Shown piece by piece: positions 4,660-29,618 of a stretch of DNA of 64,000 bases. Made by a program: the position numbers and the translations under genes. Below the pieces are notes generated by a model. It searched no databases, had not been told where the DNA came from, and saw only the letters and a program-made list of their open reading frames with translations. The stretch covers positions 62,001-126,000 of the forward strand of contig NZ_CP131935.1 of assembly GCF_030704305.1 (NCBI RefSeq), written 5' to 3'. The DNA comes from Massilia sp. R2A-15 (lineage in GTDB: Bacteria; Pseudomonadota; Gammaproteobacteria; Burkholderiales; Burkholderiaceae_D). Within the stretch, counting starts at the first letter, position 1; each line of letters opens with the position of its first letter.

Positions 4660-6429
4660 ATGGTCCCGAAAATCGCCTGGGTTCTCGCGCCGCTGATCGC
4701 GTACGGCGCGCTGCTGGCGCTGGCGGCCGCGCGCGGACGGCTGCCGTCGCGCCAGTCGTTCAACGTGCAAACCAGCCTGCTGCTGATGGCCTACCTGCTC
4801 ACCACGGCGGGCCTGGGCATTTTCTGGGTGGCCAACCAGCAGCTGCCCGTCTTCGACTGGCACTACCTGTTCGGCTACTGCACGGTGCTGCTGGTCTCGA
4901 TTCACCTGTGGTTCAACTTCCCGCTGGCGTGGCGCTGGCTCCGCGGACCGAAGCGCGCGCACGCGTCGGCAGCCGGCGACGGCTTGTTCAAGGCGCTGGT
5001 CACGGCGGCAGCGCTGGTTGCGGCGTTCCTGCTCGGGACGCGCCAGGGCGGCGACACCGCCGCGCCGCTGCCGGCGGCCGACGCGATGGTGCGCTATCAC
5101 GAGCTGTCGTCCGATTCGCGCCGCAGCGTGTTCGCGCGCGCGCCAGGGATCGACTGGGGCGCGCCGCCACCCATGTTCAAGGCCTATCCCGGCGCGCGCC
5201 ACATTGCGCTGCCGCGCGATGAAGTCGGATCGACGTCGCTGGGCGAGGCGTTGCGCACGGTGCGGCCACGCATGGCGCCCTTGCGGCTGGCAGAACTGGG
5301 CGACATCCTGTTTTTGTCGGCCGGCGTCACGGCGCAGCGCGGCGGCAATGCGCTGCGCGCGGCGCCTTCCTCGGGCGCGCTGTTTTCGAGCGAACTGTAT
5401 GTGCTGGCGCGCGAGGTCGATGGTCTTCCGGCCGGCGTGTATCACTACGATCCCGACCAGCACCGCCTCGACGCCATCGGCCCGGCGCCCGCGCTGGCGG
5501 ACGCCGACGCCACCATCGTCGCCACCTCCGTGTTTCGCCGCACCGGCTACAAGTACCGCGACCGCGCCTACCGTTACGTGACAGCCGACACCGGCCACCT
5601 TCTGGAGAACCTGCGCCTCGCTGGCCGCGCGGCGGGGATGCAGGCGGAGCCGGTCGCGCGCTTCGACGAGGCGCAGCTGGCGCGCGCGGTGGGCGTGGAC
5701 GGCGTGGAGGAGGGCGTGCTGGCGGCGATGGCCTTGCGGCGCGGCGAAGCGCGGGCGCCGGCGCCGCGCCTGGTGGGGACGACGGCCGGGGCGCCTGGCG
5801 CGCTTGGCGTGAGGGGCGCGGTGCAGCAGGCGACATCGCTGCGCTTGGCCGCGGACCGGGACGCTGATAATGCGATCGCGCTGCCGGCGCCGCGGCCGGC
5901 CGCCATGCCGCTGCGGCGTGCGATCGGCGAGCGCCGCAGCCAGCGCCGCTTCCATGCCGGCCCGGTGCCGCTCGCCGCGCTGTCGGCTATTCTGGCCGGC
6001 ATGGCGCAGCCGCCGCAGCTGTCGGACGCGGTTCGCATCCACATTGTCGTCAACCGCGTGGACGGCCTGGAGCCCGGCGTCTACCGCTATCTCGCGCGTC
6101 ACGCGCTCGAACGCGTGCGCGCGGGCGACTTTTCGGCCGCGGCGCAGTCGGCCGCGCTGTCGCAGGAAGTCATTGGCGGCGCGGCGGTGGTGCTGGTGCT
6201 GTCGGCCGAGCGCGCGCCGATGCTGGGAGAGGGCGCGCGCGGCTATCGGCAGGGCTACTTGGAAGCGGGCATGGTGGGCGAACGCTGGTTGCTGGGTGCG
6301 GTCGCGCACGGGCTGGCGGCGTGCCCGGTGGGTGCGTTTTACGACGACGAGGCCGCGGCGCTGATCGGCGTGGACCCGAAGCGGCAATGGGTGCTGCACT
6401 TCGCGGCACTGGGCCTGCCTGCGACATAG
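4660..6429 (+). CDS. Membrane-anchored SagB/ThcOx-type protein with two nitroreductase domains
   Basis: A 589-aa fusion. Residues 1-135 hold about four membrane helices (one with an HYLFGYCTVLLVSIHLWF segment suggestive of a cytochrome-b-like fold), followed by two tandem nitroreductase-like domains at about 170-375 and 410-585. The first contains the SagB pattern S(S)GALFSSELYVLAREVDGLPAGVYHYDP; the second has RRSQRRF and a GERWLLGAVAHGLAACPVGAF end. SagB-type enzymes are FMN-dependent azoline dehydrogenases that act with YcaO cyclodehydratases, but no YcaO or precursor peptide is visible nearby, so the role here is open. Confidence 0.75.
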   Translation: MVPKIAWVLAPLIAYGALLALAAARGRLPSRQSFNVQTSLLLMAYLLTTAGLGIFWVANQQLPVFDWHYLFGYCTVLLVSIHLWFNFPLAWRWLRGPKRAHASAAGDGLFKALVTAAALVAAFLLGTRQGGDTAAPLPAADAMVRYHELSSDSRRSVFARAPGIDWGAPPPMFKAYPGARHIALPRDEVGSTSLGEALRTVRPRMAPLRLAELGDILFLSAGVTAQRGGNALRAAPSSGALFSSELYVLAREVDGLPAGVYHYDPDQHRLDAIGPAPALADADATIVATSVFRRTGYKYRDRAYRYVTADTGHLLENLRLAGRAAGMQAEPVARFDEAQLARAVGVDGVEEGVLAAMALRRGEARAPAPRLVGTTAGAPGALGVRGAVQQATSLRLAADRDADNAIALPAPRPAAMPLRRAIGERRSQRRFHAGPVPLAALSAILAGMAQPPQLSDAVRIHIVVNRVDGLEPGVYRYLARHALERVRAGDFSAAAQSAALSQEVIGGAAVVLVLSAERAPMLGEGARGYRQGYLEAGMVGERWLLGAVAHGLAACPVGAFYDDEAAALIGVDPKRQWVLHFAALGLPAT

Positions 6430-9949: not shown

Positions 9950-10001
9950 CGATCGGCCTTCTCCGGCAGTTCCAGCCGGTCATTCTAGCCGAGGGCGCGG
10001 C

Positions 10002-11171
10002 TCAGATGACGAATTCGGGGGCGGTCCTTCCCGCGCGGACGGCGAGGTGGCCGCTGTTGCAGACCACGCGATTGCGCCCGCCGGACTTGGCCAGGTACAG
10101 CGCCTCGTCGGCGCGCGCGATCATCTGCGCGATCGTTTCGCCGTCGCGGTATTGGGCCACGCCGATCGACACCGACAGGCAAAGCTCTTCGCGGATATCG
10201 GGGAACGCCAGCGTTTCGACGTGCGCGCGGATGCGTTCGACCAGCAGGCAGGCGGCATCGAGCCGGGTCTCGGGCAGCATCAGCAGGAACTCTTCGCCGC
10301 CGTAGCGCCCGAACGAGTCGATGTCGCGCACCTGCGCCGCGACGGCGTGGGCAAACGTACGCAGCACGGTGTCGCCGGCCGAGTGGCCGTAGGTGTCGTT
10401 GACGCGCTTGAAGAAGTCGATATCGAGCAGGCAGACGCAGAACGGCCGGCCGGCGCGCGCGCTGCGGTGCTGCTCGCGTTCGATCAGTTCGAGCAGGTGG
10501 CGCCGGTTATGGCTGCCCGTGAGCTCGTCGCGGATGGCCAGCGCGTTGATGTAGTCGAGCGCCTTTTCGAGCTTGACGAAGCCCTGCGTCTTGGTCACTT
10601 CGAACAGCAGCACGAAGCTCACGACGATCACGAACAGTCCCAGTTCGCACAGGATGCGCAGCAGCGCCATGTTCTCGACCGGCACTGGCGGCAGCGCCAC
10701 GCCCATCAGCGGCAGCACGTGCAGCGCGATGATTGCCGCGCAGCTCATGGCCAGCCAGAACATCGCGGTGCCGATGCCGCCAATGAGCATCGCCGCCACG
10801 GGCGGGGTGATGAGCCAGCTGGTGGTCGGCGCGCTGACGCCGCCCAGGTGGTAGCTGAGCCAGACGAAATTGAAGAAGGCGGCGCTGACGAACATCTCGC
10901 GCGCCAGGAAGATGCTGCCGCGCGCGCGCAGCAGGAAGGGCGCGGCGAACATGAAGGCGCAGCAGGCGAGGATTTCGACGGTGGCGACGGGGAATCCGAG
11001 GAGATAGTAGAGCAGCGCGTAGAACGGCCCGGACAGCGCCGCCATCAGCGCGGCGTTGACCACATTCTGCGCGCGGCTGAGCAACTCGGGCGAGCGCCGC
11101 GCCGCTGGCGGAATGAACCACTCGATGGCCAGCACATAGCGGCGCATCCAGTGTGAACCTGGATTTTTCAT
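10002..11171 (-). CDS. Diguanylate cyclase, membrane-bound GGDEF protein
   Basis: A protein of about 389 aa that should make cyclic di-GMP. Residues 30-210 form about six membrane helices (a MASE-like sensor not assigned to a named type). The GGDEF domain contains the active-site GGEEF in FGRYGGEEFLLMLPE. RDID sits five residues before GGEEF and matches the RxxD inhibitory site, so product feedback is likely. The ATG at 11171 (MKNPGSHWMRR) was chosen over the longer frame at 11207. Confidence 0.9.
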   Translation of the reverse strand: MKNPGSHWMRRYVLAIEWFIPPAARRSPELLSRAQNVVNAALMAALSGPFYALLYYLLGFPVATVEILACCAFMFAAPFLLRARGSIFLAREMFVSAAFFNFVWLSYHLGGVSAPTTSWLITPPVAAMLIGGIGTAMFWLAMSCAAIIALHVLPLMGVALPPVPVENMALLRILCELGLFVIVVSFVLLFEVTKTQGFVKLEKALDYINALAIRDELTGSHNRRHLLELIEREQHRSARAGRPFCVCLLDIDFFKRVNDTYGHSAGDTVLRTFAHAVAAQVRDIDSFGRYGGEEFLLMLPETRLDAACLLVERIRAHVETLAFPDIREELCLSVSIGVAQYRDGETIAQMIARADEALYLAKSGGRNRVVCNSGHLAVRAGRTAPEFVI

Positions 11172-11361
11172 GGATATTTCTGTCCCGTTGGTCCACGCGC
11201 CGCGCAATATCCTGAAGCGCGGTCCGCACTGTTGTCGTCGATATAAAGGCTTATTCGGCGACTCGTTATCTATTACTTAATAGTAACATGTTAATCCAGC
11301 CGGAAACATATGGGCGGGTTTTATTTGTGCGAATCGCGCCTGGGACATCCCTTTTTTCTAG

Positions 11362-11390
11362 TTTGACGGCTGAGGCGCCAACGAAGATAC
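11362..11390 (+). promoter_or_regulatory. Candidate sigma-70 promoter for the M28 peptidase gene
   Basis: TTGACG, a 17-bp spacer, then GATACT, ending about 35 bp before the proposed TTG start. Confidence 0.4.
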
Positions 11391-11422
11391 TGTGTGCACC
11401 CAATTTTAATCGGAGACACCTT

Positions 11423-13072
11423 TTGAAAAACGCCACCCTCGTTCTTCTTGCCTGTGCCGCGGCCAGCGCCGGCGCCGCCGACGCGCCCAGGTTCGACCCC
11501 CACCGCCTGTCGCAGGACGTCAAGGTCCTGGCCTCGGATGAATTCGAGGGCCGCGGACCGCACACCGCGGGCGAAACCAAGACCGTCGCCTACCTGATCG
11601 CGCAGTTCAAGGCGGCAGGCCTCAAGCCGGGCGGCGAGCTGGTCGACGGCAAGCGCGGCTGGACCCAGGACGTGCCGCTGGGCCGGTTCGAGATCAAGGG
11701 ACCGGTCAAGCTGACCGTCAACGACGGCAAGCGCAGCCAGTCGTACACGCAGGGCGCCGAGATGGCCGTGCGCGCGGCGATGAACGGCGAACGCATGGTC
11801 GACTTCAAGAACGCGCCGCTGGTGTTCGTCGGTTACGGCGTCACGGCGCCGGAGCGCAAGTGGGACGATTTCAAGGGCGCCGACCTGAGGGGCAAGCTGG
11901 CGGTGGTGCTGATCAACGACCCCGATTTCGAAACGGGCGAGGGCGAATTCGGCGGCAAGGCGATGACCTATTACGGCCGCTGGACCTATAAATACGAAGA
12001 GATGGCGCGGCGCGGCGCACTCGGCACGATCATCGTGCACGAAACGGCGCCGGCCTCGTACGGCTGGGCGACGGTGAAGAACTCCAACACCAACGTCATG
12101 TACGACATCGTGCGCAAGGAGCCTGCCAAGGCGCACGGCGCGATGGAAGCGTGGATCCAGCGCGATGCGGCCGCCGATCTGTTCAAGCGCGCCGGCCTCG
12201 ATTTCGACGCCGCCAAGAAGCAGGCGCAAAGCCGCGACTTCAAGCCGGTGGAGCTGAAAGGCGTGACGCTGTCGGCGCACTACGCGGTCGATGCGCAGGT
12301 GATCAAGTCGAAGAACGTGGCGGCGCTGCGCGAAGGTAGCGAGCGCCCGAACGAGTACGTGCTGTACAGCGCGCACTGGGATCACCTCGGCGTTGGCCTG
12401 CCCGATGCGAAGGGCGACAGGATCTACAACGGCGCGATCGACAACGGCACCGGCGTGGCGGCCTTGCTGGAACTGGCGCGCGGCTTCGCGAAGCAGCCGG
12501 CGCCGCAGCGCAGCGTGGTGTTCCTGGCGGTGACGGCGGAAGAAAAGGGCCTGCTCGGATCGGAATACTATGCGTCCAATCCGCTGTATCCGCTGGCCGC
12601 GACCGCGGCCATGATCAACATGGATGGGCTGAATCCGGAAGGGCCGTCGCGCAACTTCACCATCTCGGGTAATGCGAAGCTGGACCTGCTCGACCAGCTG
12701 ACGGCGAAGGCGAAGCAGTGGAACCTGGTGTATTCGCCCGATCCGAAGCCGGAAGCGGGCTACTTCTTCCGGTCGGACCACTTCCCGATGGCCAGGCAAG
12801 GCGTGCCGGCGATTTCGTTCGGGTCCGGGAACGACTGGGTCGATGGCGGGGTCAAGGCCGGCAAGGCCTGGATCGAAGGCTACACGACCAATCACTACCA
12901 TCAACCGTCGGACGAGTGGAGCGCGAAGTGGAGCTTCACCGGCATGGCGCGCGACCTGGAGATCCTGTACGCGCTCGGCGCGGACCTCGCCAATTCCAAG
13001 GCGTGGCCGAACTGGTCGCAGGATTCCGAATTCCGCGCCAAGCGGGACGAGAGCGCGGCGCAGCGCAAGTAA
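11423..13072 (+). CDS. M28 family metallopeptidase with PA-like insert, exported
   Basis: A 549-aa co-catalytic zinc aminopeptidase. I chose TTG at 11423: GGAG lies 8-10 bases upstream and the start gives a proper signal peptide (KNATLVLLACAAASAGAA). The family arrangement is visible: a protease-associated-like segment (about 130-290) that includes LVFVGYGVTAPE, then the M28 zinc ligands in SAHWDHLGVG, IDNGTG, TAEEKGLLGSEYY and NMDG, with the last His in TTNHYHQPSDEW. It would degrade peptides in the periplasm. Confidence 0.9.
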   Translation: MKNATLVLLACAAASAGAADAPRFDPHRLSQDVKVLASDEFEGRGPHTAGETKTVAYLIAQFKAAGLKPGGELVDGKRGWTQDVPLGRFEIKGPVKLTVNDGKRSQSYTQGAEMAVRAAMNGERMVDFKNAPLVFVGYGVTAPERKWDDFKGADLRGKLAVVLINDPDFETGEGEFGGKAMTYYGRWTYKYEEMARRGALGTIIVHETAPASYGWATVKNSNTNVMYDIVRKEPAKAHGAMEAWIQRDAAADLFKRAGLDFDAAKKQAQSRDFKPVELKGVTLSAHYAVDAQVIKSKNVAALREGSERPNEYVLYSAHWDHLGVGLPDAKGDRIYNGAIDNGTGVAALLELARGFAKQPAPQRSVVFLAVTAEEKGLLGSEYYASNPLYPLAATAAMINMDGLNPEGPSRNFTISGNAKLDLLDQLTAKAKQWNLVYSPDPKPEAGYFFRSDHFPMARQGVPAISFGSGNDWVDGGVKAGKAWIEGYTTNHYHQPSDEWSAKWSFTGMARDLEILYALGADLANSKAWPNWSQDSEFRAKRDESAAQRK

Positions 13073-23036: not shown

Positions 23037-23055
23037 TTCTTGGTGGCCCGGGGCG
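23037..23055. repeat. Left attachment site (copy of tRNA-Phe 3' end)
   Basis: TTCTTGGTGGCCCGGGGCG matches 29539-29557 exactly (19 bp), and the match continues imperfectly for about 9 bp (AACCGAAC against AATCGAAC). It contains the complement of the tRNA 3' CCA end. This marks the left border of the integrated element. Confidence 0.9.
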
Positions 23056-23102
23056 CAACCGAACGCAAGCCCGCTCTAAGGCTACGATCGTGTTCCATAG
23101 TG

Positions 23103-23402: not shown

Positions 23403-23690
23403 TTAAAGGGCAGCCTCACCGAACACGCGAGCATGCCAGTACATTTGGGGTGCGGCAAACCAATTTTCATTCTTGGTCGTTCGGAATTGAGCAAGTTGAG
23501 CCATCGGTATTTGATAGCGACTGAACAAAGCTAACAGGTCTCTGAGGGACGCCTGTGAGAGGTTCGTTCTGACAACCAATGAATCTTGTTCCCACCGAAG
23601 AACGCCAGGAATCTGGGTTGCCCACTCAAACATATGCCTCTCGTCGAGCTGCGAACCAAAATGCACGCCTGAGCAGTCGAGAGAAATCAT
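23403..23690 (-). CDS. Small hypothetical cargo protein, 95 aa
   Basis: Unrecognised protein starting MISLDCSGVHFGSQLDERHMFEWA. AAGGAG lies 6-7 bases before the ATG at 23690, which decides the start over the longer frame beginning at 23789 (that extension is made of repeat sequence). It is soluble, with a pattern of strand and helix (VLRWEQDSLVVRTNLSQASLRDLLALFSRYQIPM), and its size and style resemble immunity-like single-domain proteins, but I cannot assign a family. It is flanked by copies of the palindromic repeat (23361-23376, 23711-23724). Confidence 0.65.
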   Translation of the reverse strand: MISLDCSGVHFGSQLDERHMFEWATQIPGVLRWEQDSLVVRTNLSQASLRDLLALFSRYQIPMAQLAQFRTTKNENWFAAPQMYWHARVFGEAAL

Positions 23691-23710
23691 TGGTCTCCTT
23701 GTCTTTCTAA

Positions 23711-23782
23711 GTCCGCTTCTGGCCGTTTGCTGACTATTGTACTCAACACCCGGCTGGCTGTGTCCGCTTCCGCCGAAGCGGG
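23711..23782. repeat. Palindromic cargo repeat, two adjacent copies
   Basis: GTCCGCTTCTGGCC at 23711-23724, then TGTCCGCTTCCGCCGAAGC starting at 23761. Both relate to the dyad GTCCGCTTC-TGGCC-GAAGCGGAC that also occurs at 24271 and 24713. They fall between the 95-aa gene and the broken gene upstream. Confidence 0.65.
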
Positions 23783-23785
23783 CGG

Positions 23786-24197
23786 TCATGCAGTTTCATA
23801 CGCTTTGATCAGTTGATCCTCACACTGCGCCGTGGAAATGTGAAGAAGTATCGTACGTTGTAGATCGACGATCGAATGGACTGCGACGTTCTTGGAAAAC
23901 CAAAAAACTTCCTCCAATGGCTCATCTGTGTGCCAGGTGGTTGTGACGAAACCGTCATCCGGAATTGGTTCCTCGCTATACTTATCGATATTCGCCCAGT
24001 CTACTGAGTCATCCCAAGAACTGCACTCGGTTCCCCGCGCCTAGGCAGCCAGACCGAACAATCCAATCGCTTACCAATGACTGCCACTCGGGCGACACTT
24101 CCGCATCAGCAATTACGACCATCCGAGTTGGCTCGTTGGCGATTTCGGGGAGCGATGATTCAGGTTCCAGATGGAGATAAATTATTCGGTCGGACAC
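23786..24197 (-). pseudogene. Frameshifted gene (DUF7684-like)
   Basis: Two open frames join within the sequence. The first runs from GTG 24197 (AAGG upstream) through SDRIIYLHLEPESSLPEI, VVIADAEVSPEWQSLVSDWIVRSGCL, and then hits a stop at 24009. The second frame picks up at CSSWDDSVDWANIDKYSEE, PIPDDGFVTTTWHTDEPLEE and ends with KAYETA at 23786. As I recall this family, a YMMAWG-like stretch should join them; the coding sequence at the junction fits loss of about 8 bases near 24035. The intact family is small, cytosolic and uncharacterised. Confidence 0.75.
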
Positions 24198-24270: not shown

Positions 24271-24292
24271 CTTCTGGCCCGAAGCGGACATT
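24271..24292. repeat. Palindromic cargo repeat
   Basis: CTTCTGGCCC-GAAGCGGACA dyad directly at the end of the next gene: the TGA stop (24292-24294) touches it. Same family as 23711 and 24713. Confidence 0.65.
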
Positions 24293-24648
24293 CAAGTGCC
24301 GCTCAGCCAGCCTGAATCGAATGACCGCCCGGCACGCGCTTTAATAATAACTCTGGTGTGCAGGGAGTACCCTTGAACACCCCAAGGCGCCGGGGTTGCA
24401 TGCAATACCACCGACGACACATCTGCTTCTTCAAACTCATGCTTGCGCAATATCGCAAGGGTTGTTGAGTGGAGCGATGCCAACGCGAGTCGAAGCGGGC
24501 GGAGTTCCGCAATATGATCGGGATAGGGTTCAGCGACTAAAAGTTCAATGCTTGTCGTTTGAAGTCCTGCCTCCCGCAGAGCTAACGCTAAATGAGGGGA
24601 AATATAGCTCAACCCGCTTGCCGCATGATGCGCAATATCGTGTGCCAC
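24292..24648 (-). CDS. Small hypothetical cargo protein, 118 aa, possibly 5'-truncated
   Basis: Unrecognised soluble protein with VAHDIAHHAASGLSYISPHLALALREAG near the N-terminus, SIELLVAEPYPDHIAELRPLRLAL in the middle and a VIIKARAGRSFDSGWLSGT end. A GTG at 24648 is the first start codon, yet the frame upstream of it still looks coding (FEDFSTGRVSVLAG) with no ATG, GTG or TTG before it reaches the palindromic repeat at 24713. The natural start may therefore have been lost to the repeat. It has no good ribosome site. Confidence 0.55.
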   Translation of the reverse strand: MAHDIAHHAASGLSYISPHLALALREAGLQTTSIELLVAEPYPDHIAELRPLRLALASLHSTTLAILRKHEFEEADVSSVVLHATPAPWGVQGYSLHTRVIIKARAGRSFDSGWLSGT

Positions 24649-25220: not shown

Positions 25221-25508
25221 GATCATTGCTGCCTCTTGAACCCGGCTTCGTGTTGAGGCCGTCGCGTGATTTTCTGTCGGCGGTGTCAATAGCGCAAGTG
25301 TCGCCCGCGGGAAATTTGCTGTTGTGGAATTGCTAACGCCGCTTGATGCAGCTCATCAGCCACCGGTGCAGTCCGATTACAGTGGTGGTCGACGAGTCGC
25401 TGGTTAGGAGCAAGCCATGTTTTCGCTTCGCTCAAACGGCTTGCCCTGCGGGGCCATCTCTCGCTGCGCTCGCCAGAACCCAAAATAAAAATCATCCGTC
25501 CGCGCATC

Positions 25509-25898
25509 ATGCCGCCCGATGTCTCCACGCCCAAATCCGCCGGCGGCCGTCCCAAGGGCGACCCCGCAGCTGTTCGCAGCGCAACGATCGGCGTCCGTGT
25601 TTCAGCCGGCGAGTACGCAATGCTGCGGGCCAAAGCCGCACGAATGCACATGGCGCCGGCCCAGTGGCTGCGCGAGGCGGCCCTTGCACGGCGCCTGCCA
25701 TCTCCCCCGGTCGCTGCGATTAATCGCGAGCAGTACGCCGAATTGGCCAGGCTGTCCGCAAACATCAATCAGCTGGCCAAGCTTGCCAATGAAGGCGCGA
25801 GAGTCACCGTTGCAAAGACGCTGCTCATGGCCATCGGCGCAGAGACCAAGCGATTACGCCTGGCCCTGCTCGGGATCGAAGCAGACCATGATCGCTAA
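25509..25898 (+). CDS. mobC: MobC-like relaxosome accessory protein
   Basis: A 129-aa DNA-binding protein thought to help the relaxase melt or recognise oriT. The ribbon-helix-helix-like part is SATIGVRVSAGEYAMLRAKAARMHMAPAQWLREAAL, followed by the MobC-typical NREQYAELARLSANINQLAKLANEG segment (NQLAK..N signature), and a helical tail. It starts at ATG 25509 with no strong ribosome site and overlaps the relaxase start by 11 bp, which implies translational coupling. Confidence 0.85.
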   Translation: MPPDVSTPKSAGGRPKGDPAAVRSATIGVRVSAGEYAMLRAKAARMHMAPAQWLREAALARRLPSPPVAAINREQYAELARLSANINQLAKLANEGARVTVAKTLLMAIGAETKRLRLALLGIEADHDR

Positions 25899-27747
25899 GG
25901 CAGTGAAGGGGACTGGATTTCGTGGGGTCCTTCAATACGACTTGGAGAAGGACCAGAGCCGCATCATCGACACCAATATGGAAGGCCGCAATGCACGCGA
26001 CCTGGCCGCGGAGTTTGGCGAGATTAGGAAGTTGCGCCCGGGGCTTGGCAAAGCGGTACTGCACGTCTCGTTGTCTGCCGCACCTGGCGAACATCTGGAT
26101 GACACGCAATGGACGCAAATAGCCCACCGCTATTTGAATGGAATGGGTCTGGACCAGAATCAGTACGTCGCCACGCGCCACGTCGATACGGACCATGAGC
26201 ATATTCACCTGATCGTGAATCGCATTCAATTCAACGGCGACGTCACGAGCGACAGTCACGACTACCGCCGCCAGCAGTTGATCATGCGCGAAGTGGAGCG
26301 AGACATGGGACTGCGCCAGGTAGCGTTGTCGTTCCAAGCGGAGCGACATGCGGCGACACGTGGCGAGATAGAGGAGGGGCTGCGCACCGGCATTCCGTCG
26401 ACGCGCCAGCAACTGCAGCAGCTTTGTGATGCCGCGGCGCGGGGCTGCCCAAGCTTCACGGAATACGCGTCGCGACTCGAAGCAGCTGGTGTGGACCTGT
26501 TGCCGGTAACGCAGTTAGAGGGATCGAAGTTGTCGGGCCTTTCGTACCGCCTGGATGGCGTCATGATGAAAGGGAGCGATCTGGGCAAGCGCTACAGCCC
26601 GGCCGGACTATCGAAGCTAGGAGTAGGGTATGTCAAAGAGCGAGACCTTGAAGCAGTTAGCCGCAGCATCGAACGCAGCGCGATTGGCGGAAATGGGGCA
26701 GCAGATCGCAGCATTGCGGAGGGCGCGCATCGAGAGCGCGGAGCAATTGGCGGAGATGCTCGAGCCGTTGGCGCGATCGATGGCCGCGCTGGCGGTCGAG
26801 ACGACCGAGACACTGTCGACAATCGGGCAGCGCAGCCGTCAGCTCGGCGAACAATTTCAGAGAGAGACGCAAGCCGCGACGGCGTCTTTGGAGAAGGCTT
26901 CGACGATGGCGCACATCGCGGCCGGCCGCCTAGCCGAGGAGAGCCGGAGATCGATCTGGAGCCGCCATCTGATCGCGCTGGCGACGGGAGTGACGAGCGC
27001 GATCCTCGTGAGCGTATTCTGGCTTTGGCTGGCCCCGCCGATAATCAACAACCAGGTGGACGTGGGGGAGATCGTGCGTCAGCTAAAGCCAGAGATCGCA
27101 GCCTTGAAGCCATCGAAAGGCAAATAGCAGCGATGGGGATTGAGCACTTTGATGTGCGAATTACGAACGTCGCGCGAGGAACGCGAATGGAGCGGAATTG
27201 GTCTCGGCAGGAGTTGCGACGCAGCGTTCCTTGGCTGAAGCGAATGAACGCGCTGGGTCATGATATCGGGCTTCGTCCCTCGGACCCGCATGGACTCATT
27301 CTGATCTCGAATCTCGATCGAGCAACGCTGGTGAAGGTGCGAGCCTTGGGACTTTCGCCGGCAGTCACCTTGGAGACCAGTCCGAACGAATATGATGCAT
27401 GGATCAAGCTATCCGATACGCCGGTAACGGATAACATTCGGGCCGCCATTTTGGCCGGCGCAAGACGCCACCTGAAACTTTGTGAGACCGGCAGCGACAT
27501 CAACCCGTATGGGTACCTTGCCGGTCTGACGAATCACACGGCGGCATTGAGGGACCGCGGCCCGAGCAGGTTCGTGATTGCGCGCACGGCGGGTGGTGCG
27601 GTCGCGGAAAGCGGTAAAAAACTAGTCGACGCTCTTGAGGTGAGCAACGGCCGCCCTGTCGCACCGCCCGCGCAGGAAAGGAACAAGCTTAACGAGCCTC
27701 AAATTACCGGCCGAACCGCGCAGCGCGAGCGGGGGCCATCGCGATGA
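25888..27747 (+). CDS. mobA: MobA-type relaxase with RepB-like primase C-terminal domain
   Basis: A 619-aa relaxase that should nick oriT and stay covalently attached to the strand. The probable nicking tyrosine is Tyr17 (GVLQYDLEKD), motif II is around His59 (VLHVSLSAAPGEHL), and the metal-binding motif III is HVDTDHEHIHLIVNRI (His98, His103, His105, His107). A low-complexity, Arg/Gly/Asp-rich linker spans about 255-405, exactly where the nested gene lies. Residues about 405-560 (MGIEHFDVRI, WSRQELRRSVPWLKRMNALGHDIGLRP, VTLETSPNEYDAWIKL) match RepB-like primases as fused to MobA in IncQ plasmids. The start ATG 25888 lies inside the end of mobC. Confidence 0.9.
   Translation: MIAKAVKGTGFRGVLQYDLEKDQSRIIDTNMEGRNARDLAAEFGEIRKLRPGLGKAVLHVSLSAAPGEHLDDTQWTQIAHRYLNGMGLDQNQYVATRHVDTDHEHIHLIVNRIQFNGDVTSDSHDYRRQQLIMREVERDMGLRQVALSFQAERHAATRGEIEEGLRTGIPSTRQQLQQLCDAAARGCPSFTEYASRLEAAGVDLLPVTQLEGSKLSGLSYRLDGVMMKGSDLGKRYSPAGLSKLGVGYVKERDLEAVSRSIERSAIGGNGAADRSIAEGAHRERGAIGGDARAVGAIDGRAGGRDDRDTVDNRAAQPSARRTISERDASRDGVFGEGFDDGAHRGRPPSRGEPEIDLEPPSDRAGDGSDERDPRERILALAGPADNQQPGGRGGDRASAKARDRSLEAIERQIAAMGIEHFDVRITNVARGTRMERNWSRQELRRSVPWLKRMNALGHDIGLRPSDPHGLILISNLDRATLVKVRALGLSPAVTLETSPNEYDAWIKLSDTPVTDNIRAAILAGARRHLKLCETGSDINPYGYLAGLTNHTAALRDRGPSRFVIARTAGGAVAESGKKLVDALEVSNGRPVAPPAQERNKLNEPQITGRTAQRERGPSR
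26630..27127 (+). CDS. mobB: MobB-like membrane protein nested inside mobA in another frame
   Basis: A 165-aa protein read wholly within the relaxase gene in the +2 frame. TAGGAG precedes the ATG by 7 bases. Residues 1-105 are a long helical coiled coil (LKQLAAASNAARLAEMGQQ.. QLGEQFQRETQAATASLEKAS), then a membrane helix at about 111-135 (HLIALATGVTSAILVSVFWLWLAPP), then a short tail ending LKPEIAALKPSKGK. In RSF1010, mobB likewise lies inside mobA and encodes a membrane protein that improves mobilization. The overlapping mobA segment is a low-complexity linker, which fits the constraint of coding twice. Confidence 0.82.
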   Translation: MSKSETLKQLAAASNAARLAEMGQQIAALRRARIESAEQLAEMLEPLARSMAALAVETTETLSTIGQRSRQLGEQFQRETQAATASLEKASTMAHIAAGRLAEESRRSIWSRHLIALATGVTSAILVSVFWLWLAPPIINNQVDVGEIVRQLKPEIAALKPSKGK

Positions 27748-27985: not shown

Positions 27986-28102
27986 ATGGCAAATAAATCC
28001 AATCGTAAGACTGGTTTCAAAGGGTGGGGGAGTGCTCGGATTCTGTCGCTACTTGGAAGTGTGGTCATTACCCTGCACTTCTATGCCGATTTAGCAAATT
28101 AG
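27986..28102 (+). CDS. 38-aa basic/hydrophobic peptide
   Basis: The gene has a near-ideal ribosome site (AAAGGAGCCCACC then ATG) and a terminator right after its stop, so it is very likely translated. The N-terminus is basic and glycine-rich (MANKSNRKTGFKGWGSARIL), followed by one hydrophobic segment (LSLLGSVVITLHFYADLA). It could be a type I toxin-like peptide, a leader peptide or a small membrane regulator. It lies between the relaxase and integrase genes. Family not recognised. Confidence 0.6.
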   Translation: MANKSNRKTGFKGWGSARILSLLGSVVITLHFYADLAN

Positions 28103-28167: not shown

Positions 28168-29364
28168 TTATTGGGCAACCTCACCCGAGCGCAATGTGTC
28201 CAAATAGTTTGCCCATTGCTGCATCATCGCAGTACGCTCCGGAAGATGCGCGGTGCGATTGTAGGCGCGGCCATGCGGATCGCGCACGGCATGAGCCAAC
28301 TGGTGCTCGATCAAATCTGGACGAACCCCCAGCACTTCGTCCAAGATCGTCCGCGCCATCGCGCGAAAGCCATGCCCGGTCATCACGTCACGCTCGATCC
28401 CCATGCGACGCATGGCGGCGAGAATCGCGTTGTCGCTCATTGGCCGGTCGGTCGTTCTGCCACAGGGGAAGACGTAGATGCCCGTCCCTGTGAGCGGCCG
28501 CAGTTCCGAGAGGATGGCGATCGCCTGGCGTGAAAGCGGCACAATGTGGGGTGTCTTGGTCTTGCTGGAGGTAAAGCGCCACAGAGCGTTTGCGAGGTCG
28601 ATGTCCGCCCACTTCGCTGTGCGCAATTCTCCCGGCCGGACGAACACCAACGGCGCCAAGCGCATCGCGCACGACACGATGAAGCTTCCCTTATAGCCGT
28701 GCAGGGTTCGCAGCAGCAGGGCCACTTCGTCCGGCTCGATCACGGCGGGGAAGTGGCGTACCTTCGCCGGCGGGATTGCGCCGCGCAGATCCACCGTAGG
28801 ATCGCGCTCGGCGCGTTGCGTGGCCACGGCATAGCGAAACACCTGGCTGCAGTTTTCACGCGCCCTGTGTGCCGTCTCGATGGCGCCGCGTTCCTCGATG
28901 CGGCGCAGGACCGCCAGCAACATCGCAGGACTAATCTGCCCCGCGTTCTTCGATCCGATCCAGGGGAAGACATCGCGCTCCAGCCGACGAATGATCCGCA
29001 CCGCGTGCGACTCGGCCCAATTCGGAGAGAACTTCGCGAACCACTCGCGTGCGACGGATTCGAAGCTGTCAGGATCTCCGTCCCTGCAAGTCACCTTGTT
29101 CTTCGCTTTGCGCTGCGCGCCGGGGTCGACGCCATCGTCCAACAGCTGGCGGGCTTCATCGCGTTTCATGCGCGCTGCCTTTAGGCCGACCTTCGGATAT
29201 ACGCCGAGGGATAGGCGCTTCTCCTTTCCGTCGAAGTGGTATCGGAAGCGCCACCACTTACCGCCGCTGACGGCTACCTCAAGGTAAAGGCCTGGGCTGT
29301 CGGACAGCCGGTAGTTCTTGTCGGCTGGCTTTGCCGCGCGTATCGCCAAGTCGTTCAGGGGCAT
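28168..29364 (-). CDS. Tyrosine recombinase, P4-type integrase
   Basis: A 398-aa site-specific recombinase that should integrate and excise the element at tRNA-Phe. The N-terminal DUF4102 arm-binding domain is clear (LNDLAIRAAKPADKNYRLSD..GLYLEV, GKEKRLSLGVYPKVGLKAAR). The catalytic domain has Arg in VRPGELRTAKW, the HGFRAMA box (H-x-x-R), His in HQLAHAVRD and the nucleophile Tyr in YNRTAHL, so it looks intact. It is transcribed away from the tRNA, 179 bp from its 3' end, with repeats of TGGGGCAACT just upstream. Confidence 0.95.
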   Translation of the reverse strand: MPLNDLAIRAAKPADKNYRLSDSPGLYLEVAVSGGKWWRFRYHFDGKEKRLSLGVYPKVGLKAARMKRDEARQLLDDGVDPGAQRKAKNKVTCRDGDPDSFESVAREWFAKFSPNWAESHAVRIIRRLERDVFPWIGSKNAGQISPAMLLAVLRRIEERGAIETAHRARENCSQVFRYAVATQRAERDPTVDLRGAIPPAKVRHFPAVIEPDEVALLLRTLHGYKGSFIVSCAMRLAPLVFVRPGELRTAKWADIDLANALWRFTSSKTKTPHIVPLSRQAIAILSELRPLTGTGIYVFPCGRTTDRPMSDNAILAAMRRMGIERDVMTGHGFRAMARTILDEVLGVRPDLIEHQLAHAVRDPHGRAYNRTAHLPERTAMMQQWANYLDTLRSGEVAQ

Positions 29365-29538: not shown

Positions 29539-29557
29539 TTCTTGGTGGCCCGGGGCG
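29539..29557. repeat. Right attachment site within tRNA-Phe
   Basis: TTCTTGGTGGCCCGGGGCG, identical to 23037-23055; overlaps the 3' end of the intact tRNA gene. Confidence 0.9.
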
Positions 29558-29618
29558 GAATCGAACCACCGACACAAGGATTTTCAATCCTCTGCTCTAC
29601 CGACTGAGCTACCAGGCC
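29543..29618 (-). tRNA. tRNA-Phe (GAA)
   Basis: A 76-nt cloverleaf on the minus strand: GGCCTGG acceptor start, D arm TAGCTCAGTCGGTAGAGCA, anticodon loop TTGAAAA (anticodon GAA), T arm GGTTCGATTCC, and encoded CCA. The 3' end is the insertion site of the mobile element and is intact. Confidence 0.97.

Follow-up and report, generated by a model that had tools for sequence, protein, structure and literature searches.

A mobB gene nested in a MOBP relaxase gene on a predicted tRNA-Phe-integrated mobilizable element, with apparent decay of the fused primase

The window examined here, a 64,000-nucleotide stretch of Massilia sp. R2A-15 (assembly GCF_030704305.1, contig NZ_CP131935.1, positions 62,001 to 126,000 of the forward strand), contains a gene, mobB (26630–27127, + strand), that lies entirely within the open reading frame (ORF) of the relaxase gene mobA (25888–27747, + strand, 619 aa). 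It starts with ATG at an offset of 742 nucleotides, and thus in the +1 frame of mobA, encodes 165 aa, and is confirmed by comparison with its relatives as a real second gene in an overlapping frame. Both genes belong to a region of about 6.5 kb that, judged by its genes and ends, is an integrative mobilizable element with an integrase gene, att repeats, an oriT-like block, mobC, mobA and mobB. The explanation offered for the region as a whole, a mobilizable element integrated at tRNA-Phe with a chimaeric mobA, a dual-coded mobB and a primase that decayed in the integrated lineage, is very probably right. Nesting of mobB in mobA is known in kind; unusual is the combination of a MOBP relaxase, an IncQ-type MobB, an integrated element and a primase apparently decayed beside the dual-coded stretch.

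For comparison of the nested frame, loci were gathered from genome contigs (27), from the genome of a relative (L005) and from three plasmids. Nineteen loci with an intact mobA start were compared with the window, L052 being omitted as a copy of L051. Excluded from the shuffling, resampling, codon-position and constraint tests were L031, L032, L041, L042, L047 and L048, in which mobA is cut or disrupted; L052, which carries the same module as L051; and L043–L046, L049, L006 and L011, which gave no tblastn match to the window MobB, some of this last group being reused in the wider-clade comparisons below. As the preliminary description of this DNA had proposed, homologues were compared in both frames. 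The nested ATG was found at offset 742 in 19 of 19 relatives (748 in L038), and stop codons were absent from their nested frames over 139–167 codons. Among the excluded loci, the nested ORFs of L031, L041 and L052 are open for 166 codons each, that of L032, in which mobA starts in another frame than at the other loci, is open for 168 codons, and that of L042 ends after 89.

The length of the ORF was rejected as evidence for mobB. Synonymous-codon shuffling of mobA, run on 6 of the 20 loci, gave a longest +1 ORF of at least 165 codons in 383 of 2000 shuffles of the window gene, and the exact interval 26630–27127 remained open in 150 of the 2000, which places the observed length within chance. 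The nested ORF is judged real because similarity across relatives, and not length, exceeds what mobA would lead one to expect. In a codon-resampling test, the mobA protein of each homologue was kept and its codons were redrawn, with 1000 resamplings per comparison with the window. Observed nested-frame similarity was higher than in 1000 of 1000 resamplings in all 19 comparisons (z 8.0–12.2), and nested-frame identity to the window, 37–55% as observed, dropped to 19–24% after resampling. Differences were also counted by codon position in 181 of 190 locus pairs, 9 pairs of less than 5% divergence having been dropped. In the N-terminal part of mobA, positions 1, 2 and 3 differ in 0.223, 0.181 and 0.496 of codon pairs; in the overlap, the values are 0.424, 0.351 and 0.327, and the pattern is thus inverted, with the third position of mobA, which is the second of the nested frame, the most conserved. 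Two points weigh on the other side, namely the ease with which shuffling reproduces the ORF length, and the fact that the 19 comparisons, which all have the window on one side and include several near copies among the loci, are not independent.

The nested frame has the ribosome-binding site of its own that the preliminary description had claimed, a TAGGAG at 26618–26623 (+ strand), 6 nucleotides before the ATG, as read from the sequence; a purine-rich stretch occupies the equivalent position in relatives. It also lies, as had been stated, over the mobA codons for a linker, here placed between the relaxase domain (to residue ~247) and the primase-like part (~400–581). The preliminary description had portrayed the product as a coiled-coil plus membrane-helix protein. 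Residues 114–132 form a single strongly hydrophobic stretch (mean Kyte-Doolittle value 2.14), from which hydropathy predicts one membrane helix near the C terminus. An AlphaFold2 model is nearly all helix, though of low confidence (mean predicted local distance difference test score 65, predicted template modelling score 0.29), too weak to add much to the membrane-helix call. A Foldseek search of the model against viral models returned no match at E ≤ 0.001.

Membership of the nested product in the IncQ MobB family was confirmed at the level of sequence profiles, with a score of 35.9 bits against Pfam Mobilization_B (PF17511), above the curated cut-off of 27. A profile built from 20 nested proteins found IncQ-1 MobB at 3e-22, the best of 1100 shuffles reaching 0.21. 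By tblastn, MobB matched 27 plasmid records at E ≤ 0.01, three of them close relatives of the window module; three of the remaining 24 were inspected, and all three are labelled IncQ1. Across 369 genomes of the same class, PF17511 was found, apart from the window's genome, only in G276, under the cut-off. Homologues in Telluria, Duganella, Plesiomonas, Chitinibacter and Serratia carry the NCBI name 'IncQ-type mobilization protein MobB'. They are direct homologues of the window mobB for which only the name exists, and among the matches listed by a literature search no paper on them was recognised. In the protein database, the entry for the window's own genome gives MobB in a 115-aa form (P0125). 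A search of viral contigs for relatives confirmed none.

Turning to the enclosing gene, MobA matches the PF03432 relaxase family at 116.9 bits (cut-off 24.6) over residues 20–142, and conservation extends to about residue 247. Residues H98, H103, H105 and H107 are invariant across 17 sequences, and a three-His motif is a signature of MOBP relaxases. No PF03389 match was found in MobA at E ≤ 0.1, and the relaxase is assigned to MOBP on its PF03432 match. Behind the linker, a weak match to PF16793 (RepB_primase; 31.1 bits) is still above the cut-off of 24.3. The MobA of the IncQ-1 plasmid pDN1, by comparison, has a PF03389 (MOBQ) relaxase at 124.9 bits. When the window MobA (P0001) was compared with the pDN1 record, only residues 287–580 matched (34.5%, E 1e-32); in the reverse direction, the primase half of pDN1 MobA matched window positions 27106–27627 at 3e-31, and no part of the window was matched by its relaxase half in tblastn at E ≤ 1. 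Upstream lies mobC (25509–25898, + strand), which overlaps the start of mobA and encodes a NikA-like accessory protein (PF21983, 50.6 bits; PF05713, 24.4 bits). For IncQ RepA and RepC, the best pDN1 matches in the window have E values of 0.34 and 0.68 and fall outside the element. Because the relaxase is MOBP and the likeness to IncQ-1 is limited to mobB and the fused RepB-type primase, mobA looks chimaeric, a MOBP relaxase joined to an IncQ-1-like segment whose two frames encode MobB and a RepB-type primase. The simplest reading places the junction close to where the relaxase domain ends, followed by the IncQ-1-like mobB/repB segment. The preliminary description had spoken of an IncQ-like mobilization module; this is borne out for mobB and the primase and not for the relaxase, which is MOBP and not MOBQ.

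Against a chimaeric mobA with a genuine second gene, several other explanations were weighed. The nested ORF might be an untranslated by-product of a G+C-rich linker rich in Arg, Gly and Asp, which would accord with the shuffles in which a +1 ORF reaches or exceeds its length; given the 19 resampling comparisons, the inverted codon-position pattern, the match to a curated family profile and the fixed start codon, the probability of this is close to negligible. Capture of a plain RSF1010/IncQ-1 (MOBQ) module by an integrase would account for the MobB family, the nesting and the fused RepB-type primase. It is nevertheless very improbable, since the relaxase belongs to PF03432 and not PF03389, the pDN1 relaxase half finds no match, mobC stands on the same strand upstream of mobA, and RepA and RepC are missing. 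The main rival to the junction, unlikely in our view and clearly less so than the two preceding ones, dispenses with a domain swap: MOBP and MOBQ forms would descend from one ancestor with relaxase, nested mobB and primase, and their relaxase halves would have diverged past recognition. Such descent would explain why a nested ORF starts near the same codon in MOBP clades (739–772 nucleotides) and pDN1 (748), and PF03432 does reach pDN1 MobA weakly (E 0.0013, 19.5 bits, below the cut-off of 24.6). However, the primase halves are 34–37% identical (E about 1e-31) and the relaxase halves are undetectable to each other by tblastn, whereas within the window's clade it is the relaxase that is the better conserved half.

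The primase part of the window MobA seems to have lost its active site. RepB' chains 3h25 and 3h20 match MobA at 6e-33 and 4e-32, with an alignment spanning about residues 400–582, in which S474-N475 of MobA (codons 27307–27312, + strand) stand in place of the Asp-Asp pair D77-D78 of the RepB' chain (numbering counted from the alignment). In the work of Geibel and colleagues of 2009, this Asp pair was reportedly found to be catalytic. A C-terminal PF22448 domain was not found in MobA by Pfam. The pair was surveyed in 141 proteins (120 database homologues, 20 loci and pDN1), L036 and L037, both without a primase, being counted among the short ones. It is present in 38 of the 40 proteins of at least 690 aa, pDN1 included, and absent from 94 of the 101 shorter proteins. 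The long proteins without it are P0088 and L038, the latter (10001–12229) being a long mobA with mobB whose C-terminal part has no Pfam primase match. In a tree of 87 relaxase N termini, made by a quick method with a midpoint root after thinning had removed 53 of 140 relaxases, a set of 26 (24 with the Asp pair) was separated from a set of 61 (59 without) with a Shimodaira–Hasegawa-like approximate likelihood ratio test value of 98. The state of the pair changes 4 times on this tree, against 22.5 times for shuffled labels.

The same division was followed in gene context and in constraint. A tyrosine integrase is encoded in 10 of 10 short-mobA loci, nine of these integrases being homologous to the window's and that of L037 a different one, and a tRNA gene lies beside it in nine of the ten (L005 is cut short); the tRNAs are for Leu, Thr, Ser and Met, and for Phe in the window. 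The integrases of the window, L037 and L039, used as queries, found no match in any of eight long-mobA loci. A constraint ratio, the mean of codon positions 1 and 2 over position 3, was then calculated for 8 integrated and 7 plasmid-like forms, with L036, L037 and L038 (no primase) and L005 and L027 (near copies) omitted. The values for integrated and plasmid-like forms are 0.37 and 0.35 in the relaxase part, 1.27 and 1.38 in the overlap, and 0.70 and 0.38 in the primase part. On these ratios, integration goes with a decaying primase, and relaxase and mobB are spared. In L036 and L037 the primase is wholly lost and a 139-codon mobB is kept. The comparisons thus support a reading in which the primase of the integrated lineage decayed, with loss of the Asp-Asp pair and the C-terminal domain, while relaxase and mobB remained constrained, and in which plasmid-like relatives keep the pair and the domain. 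This also lends support to the change of lifestyle suggested in the preliminary description, though not as the relocation of an RSF1010 module.

Several observations run counter to so clean a division. Seven of the 101 short proteins retain the Asp pair; among the eight long-mobA loci, six have the plasmid-like label solely for being 3.8–12 kb contigs without an integrase match, complete plasmid records being limited to L051 and L053; and IncQ RepA and RepC are absent from all eight. It follows from the last point that loss of IncQ replication alone does not explain primase decay in the integrated forms, and, because the long forms lack IncQ RepA and RepC, their primase may have been kept for priming after transfer. 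In R1162, the MobA-linked primase is said, in the title of a paper, to be needed for mobilization.

Among known systems, RSF1010 is the closest precedent for the nesting: according to excerpts of PMC2200642, its mobB lies inside mobA/repB in a different frame and is needed for mobilization, and its mobC is transcribed opposite to mobA. RSF1010/R1162 and pDN1 (IncQ-1) share with the window a nested mobB (offset 748 in pDN1), PF17511 and a fused RepB-type primase. They differ in being replicating plasmids with repA and repC, a PF03389 (MOBQ) relaxase, a retained Asp pair and an opposite mobC, whereas the window has a MOBP relaxase, another oriT-like block, a NikA-like mobC on the same strand, an integrase and a degenerate primase. 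The plasmid pAHH04, presumably IncQ-3 and labelled IncQ2 by MOB-suite, resembles the window in its MOBP relaxase (~40% identical N-terminally), same-strand upstream mobC and +1 ORF at offset 772; it differs in its C-terminal part, in a longer nested ORF (227 aa) and in giving no PF17511 match. For IncQ-3, excerpts of PMC7557826 give TTACACCTTGCT as the oriT core and describe a mobilization module of two genes, mobA and mobC, with a hypothetical protein among four core genes. The published core is the reverse complement of AGCAAGGTGTAA, which has AGCAAG in common with the oriT-like block of the window. In pGXY040 from Komagataeibacter, a RepA and RepC replicon, the MOBP relaxase, co-directional mobC, nested +1 ORF (offset 745) and hydrophobic stretch are as in the window, and the primase has the C-terminal domain; as differences, the plasmid replicates and its nested product has no PF17511 match. 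The MobB of IncQ-2 plasmids is a different protein. As in the window, the IncQ-2 plasmid pTC-F14 has a PF03432 relaxase fused to a PF16793 primase, and it differs in having four accessory genes, mobB–E, a nested gene not being mentioned in the excerpted text (PMC12375680). A literature search, for which most subscription papers were outside reach, found, among the matches listed, no paper on a MOBP element that is integrated and has an IncQ-type mobB nested in its relaxase gene. ColE1-type modules have other Mob protein families and are not known to carry a primase, and ColE1 mobB and mobD are fully nested. Overlapping mob genes with a MOBP relaxase are described for the ColE1-type MOBP5 group in excerpts of PMC3832669.

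The nesting itself is not peculiar to RSF1010-like relaxases: a +1 ORF occurs at this place too in MOBP relatives that are more distant and differ in their C-terminal parts. In pAHH04, pWES-1, pTM18-1, pGXY040, L043, L045 and L049, whose MOBP relaxases are 40–50% identical in the N-terminal part and have unlike C-terminal parts, a +1 ORF starts at mobA nucleotide 739–772, in three cases as an inner ATG of a longer frame. Plasmid tables name these wider-clade nested ORFs 'hypothetical protein'. A hydrophobic stretch (1.87–2.6) is present in the six nested ORFs scored, pWES-1 excepted. For the pair pAHH04 and pTM18-1, the nested-frame test gave z 11.9, with 0 of 200 resamplings reaching the score, and for L045 and L049 it gave z 7.2. 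Over 8 loci and 28 pairs, 18 pairs had 0 of 200 resamplings at the observed score; in the other 10, from 1 to 47 of 200 reached it, the largest number being for L045 compared with the window. A shared coiled-coil and membrane composition may lie behind many of the middling z values. In the overlap of pWES-1 and pAHH04, differences at mobA positions 1, 2 and 3 number 6, 18 and 13, which is not the pattern of a constrained nested frame. Evidence that the nested ORF is a gene is thus strong, as far as these comparisons go, for pAHH04–pTM18-1 and L045–L049 and weaker or absent in other pairs. The profile from 20 nested proteins found L043 at 4e-13 and L045 at 5e-4; pTM18-1, pWES-1, L049 and pAHH04 came only at 0.019–0.6, and pGXY040, L044 and L091 were not among the best 30 matches listed.

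A +1 ORF of at least 60 codons was not found in seven of eight cyanobacterial relatives. The exception, Leptolyngbya L091, has a 191-codon coiled-coil-like +1 ORF (4668–5243) without a strong hydrophobic stretch, and, further along at mobA offset 1318, that frame holds a 68-codon ORF that does have a hydrophobic stretch. L044 has a +1 ORF, again without a strong hydrophobic stretch. Among 24 more distant relaxase loci (L060–L083; L080 without an alignment), +1 ORFs starting at 742–778 were found in L061 and L071 only, neither with a strong hydrophobic stretch. A bolder proposal, to which we give somewhat less than an even chance, is that the nested gene has long belonged to the whole MOBP clade in proteobacteria and desulfovibrios, encoding a coiled-coil membrane protein in the +1 frame where the relaxase domain ends, and was kept while the C-terminal part of the host gene was swapped or lost. 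On this view, IncQ-3 resistance plasmids would have a mobB that has gone unnoticed, and domain swapping would have carried the IncQ-1 mobB/repB segment between relaxases of the MOBP and MOBQ classes. If so, the integrated branch would be a natural experiment in which the dual-coded stretch is held and the primase downstream decays. In the gene tables of L050–L057 and L090 the nested ORF has an entry, as does a distinct ORF for the C-terminal part, but a full-length mobA has none, the PLSDB tables declaring themselves incomplete; the C-terminal ORF is named primase in those of L050–L055 and L090.

For delimitation of the element, the att repeats and the tRNA gene were used. The 28-bp right copy of the repeat (29539–29566) lies within the 3′ end of an intact tRNA-Phe gene (gaa; 29543–29618, − strand; ARAGORN and Rfam), the presumed integration target, and the left copy (23037–23064) is identical to it at 26 of 28 positions, 6502 bp away; nothing but the tRNA was matched by the Rfam scan. 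A tyrosine integrase gene (28168–29364, − strand; Arm-DNA-bind_3, Phage_int_M and Phage_integrase) stands beside the tRNA, and the tRNA-integrated element of the preliminary description is in this way corroborated. Three genomes of the same genus (G001, G002 and G004) appear to show the site unoccupied: the right flank and tRNA lead up to the repeat, which is followed at once by left-flank sequence with a terminator-like hairpin, continuity extending 35–52 bp past the repeat. Less favourably, these matches are short (72–89 nucleotides, 73–78%), and G008, with the same junction beside a tRNA copy, is ambiguous in having several copies.

The oriT-like block (25409–25453) lies upstream of mobC and contains a perfect 7-bp inverted repeat, GCAAGCC (25410–25416) and GGCTTGC (25438–25444). 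When up to 2 mismatches are allowed, its 20-base core is found upstream of mobC in 26 of the 30 loci inspected, including Desulfovibrio loci, and with 3 mismatches in L044; it was not found in pAHH04, pGXY040 or pTM18-1. Single-strand folding gave z values of −2.62 for 25405–25450 and −1.43 for 25400–25460. From its conservation and position, the block is read as a putative oriT. The hexamer ATCCTG, a nic motif of MOBP systems, occurs upstream of mobC in only 5 of 22 loci and is absent from the window.

In the proposed mechanism, Int would excise the element as a circle, MobC and the MOBP relaxase MobA would attach to the oriT-like site that precedes mobC and nick it, and MobB, mostly helical with one membrane anchor, would bring the relaxosome to the type IV secretion system of a helper. 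In the recipient, Int would integrate the DNA at tRNA-Phe. The two VirB4 matches in the genome are both elsewhere than the element, which is therefore without mating-pair genes. It is improbable that the element is instead a decayed remnant, no longer mobile: the degenerate primase and a second, broken copy at another place in the genome would fit a remnant, but relaxase, mobB, mobC and integrase are open, relaxase and mobB are constrained, the oriT-like block is conserved, and tRNA and att are intact.

A mobile element of this kind shows that a dual-coded mobB is not confined to MOBQ plasmids and occurs also on chromosomal elements, within a chimaeric MOBP relaxase gene, with relatives enough for selection to be measured in both frames. 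It makes testable the role of MobB with different relaxase classes, and why a fused primase should be kept on plasmids and lost after integration. There is also a practical side. The three plasmid records inspected with the full module, L051 (NZ_CP027855.1), L052 (NZ_CP058628.1) and L053 (NZ_OQ821182.1), have the oriT-like block, mobC, mobA and mobB, yet their MOB-suite label in PLSDB is 'non-mobilizable'; a resistance gene is in the table of each.

Of the remaining ORFs in the element, two are possible cargo (23403–23789, − strand, 128 aa, and 24292–24648, − strand, 118 aa), neither with a family, and PADLOC made no call for either. Between mobA and the integrase gene lies a 38-codon ORF (27986–28102, + strand) that encodes a hydrophobic stretch and has a strong ribosome site, AAAGGAG; tblastn at E ≤ 0.01 found nothing similar to it in 33 related loci. 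On G004:C525, G008:C45 and G001:C16, the tRNA-Phe end is repeated several times at distances of kilobases, as if elements were stacked at the site. In the window's own genome, a broken second relaxase gene (locus L011, G000:C1:3854986–3855534, − strand), 69% identical and with the same oriT-like block, is by these features the remnant of a sister element. The VirB4-family genes at G000:C1:1802725–1803342 and 3011974–3012573 may mark helper elements, and one VirB4-family gene is about 11 kb from another relaxase (1813992).

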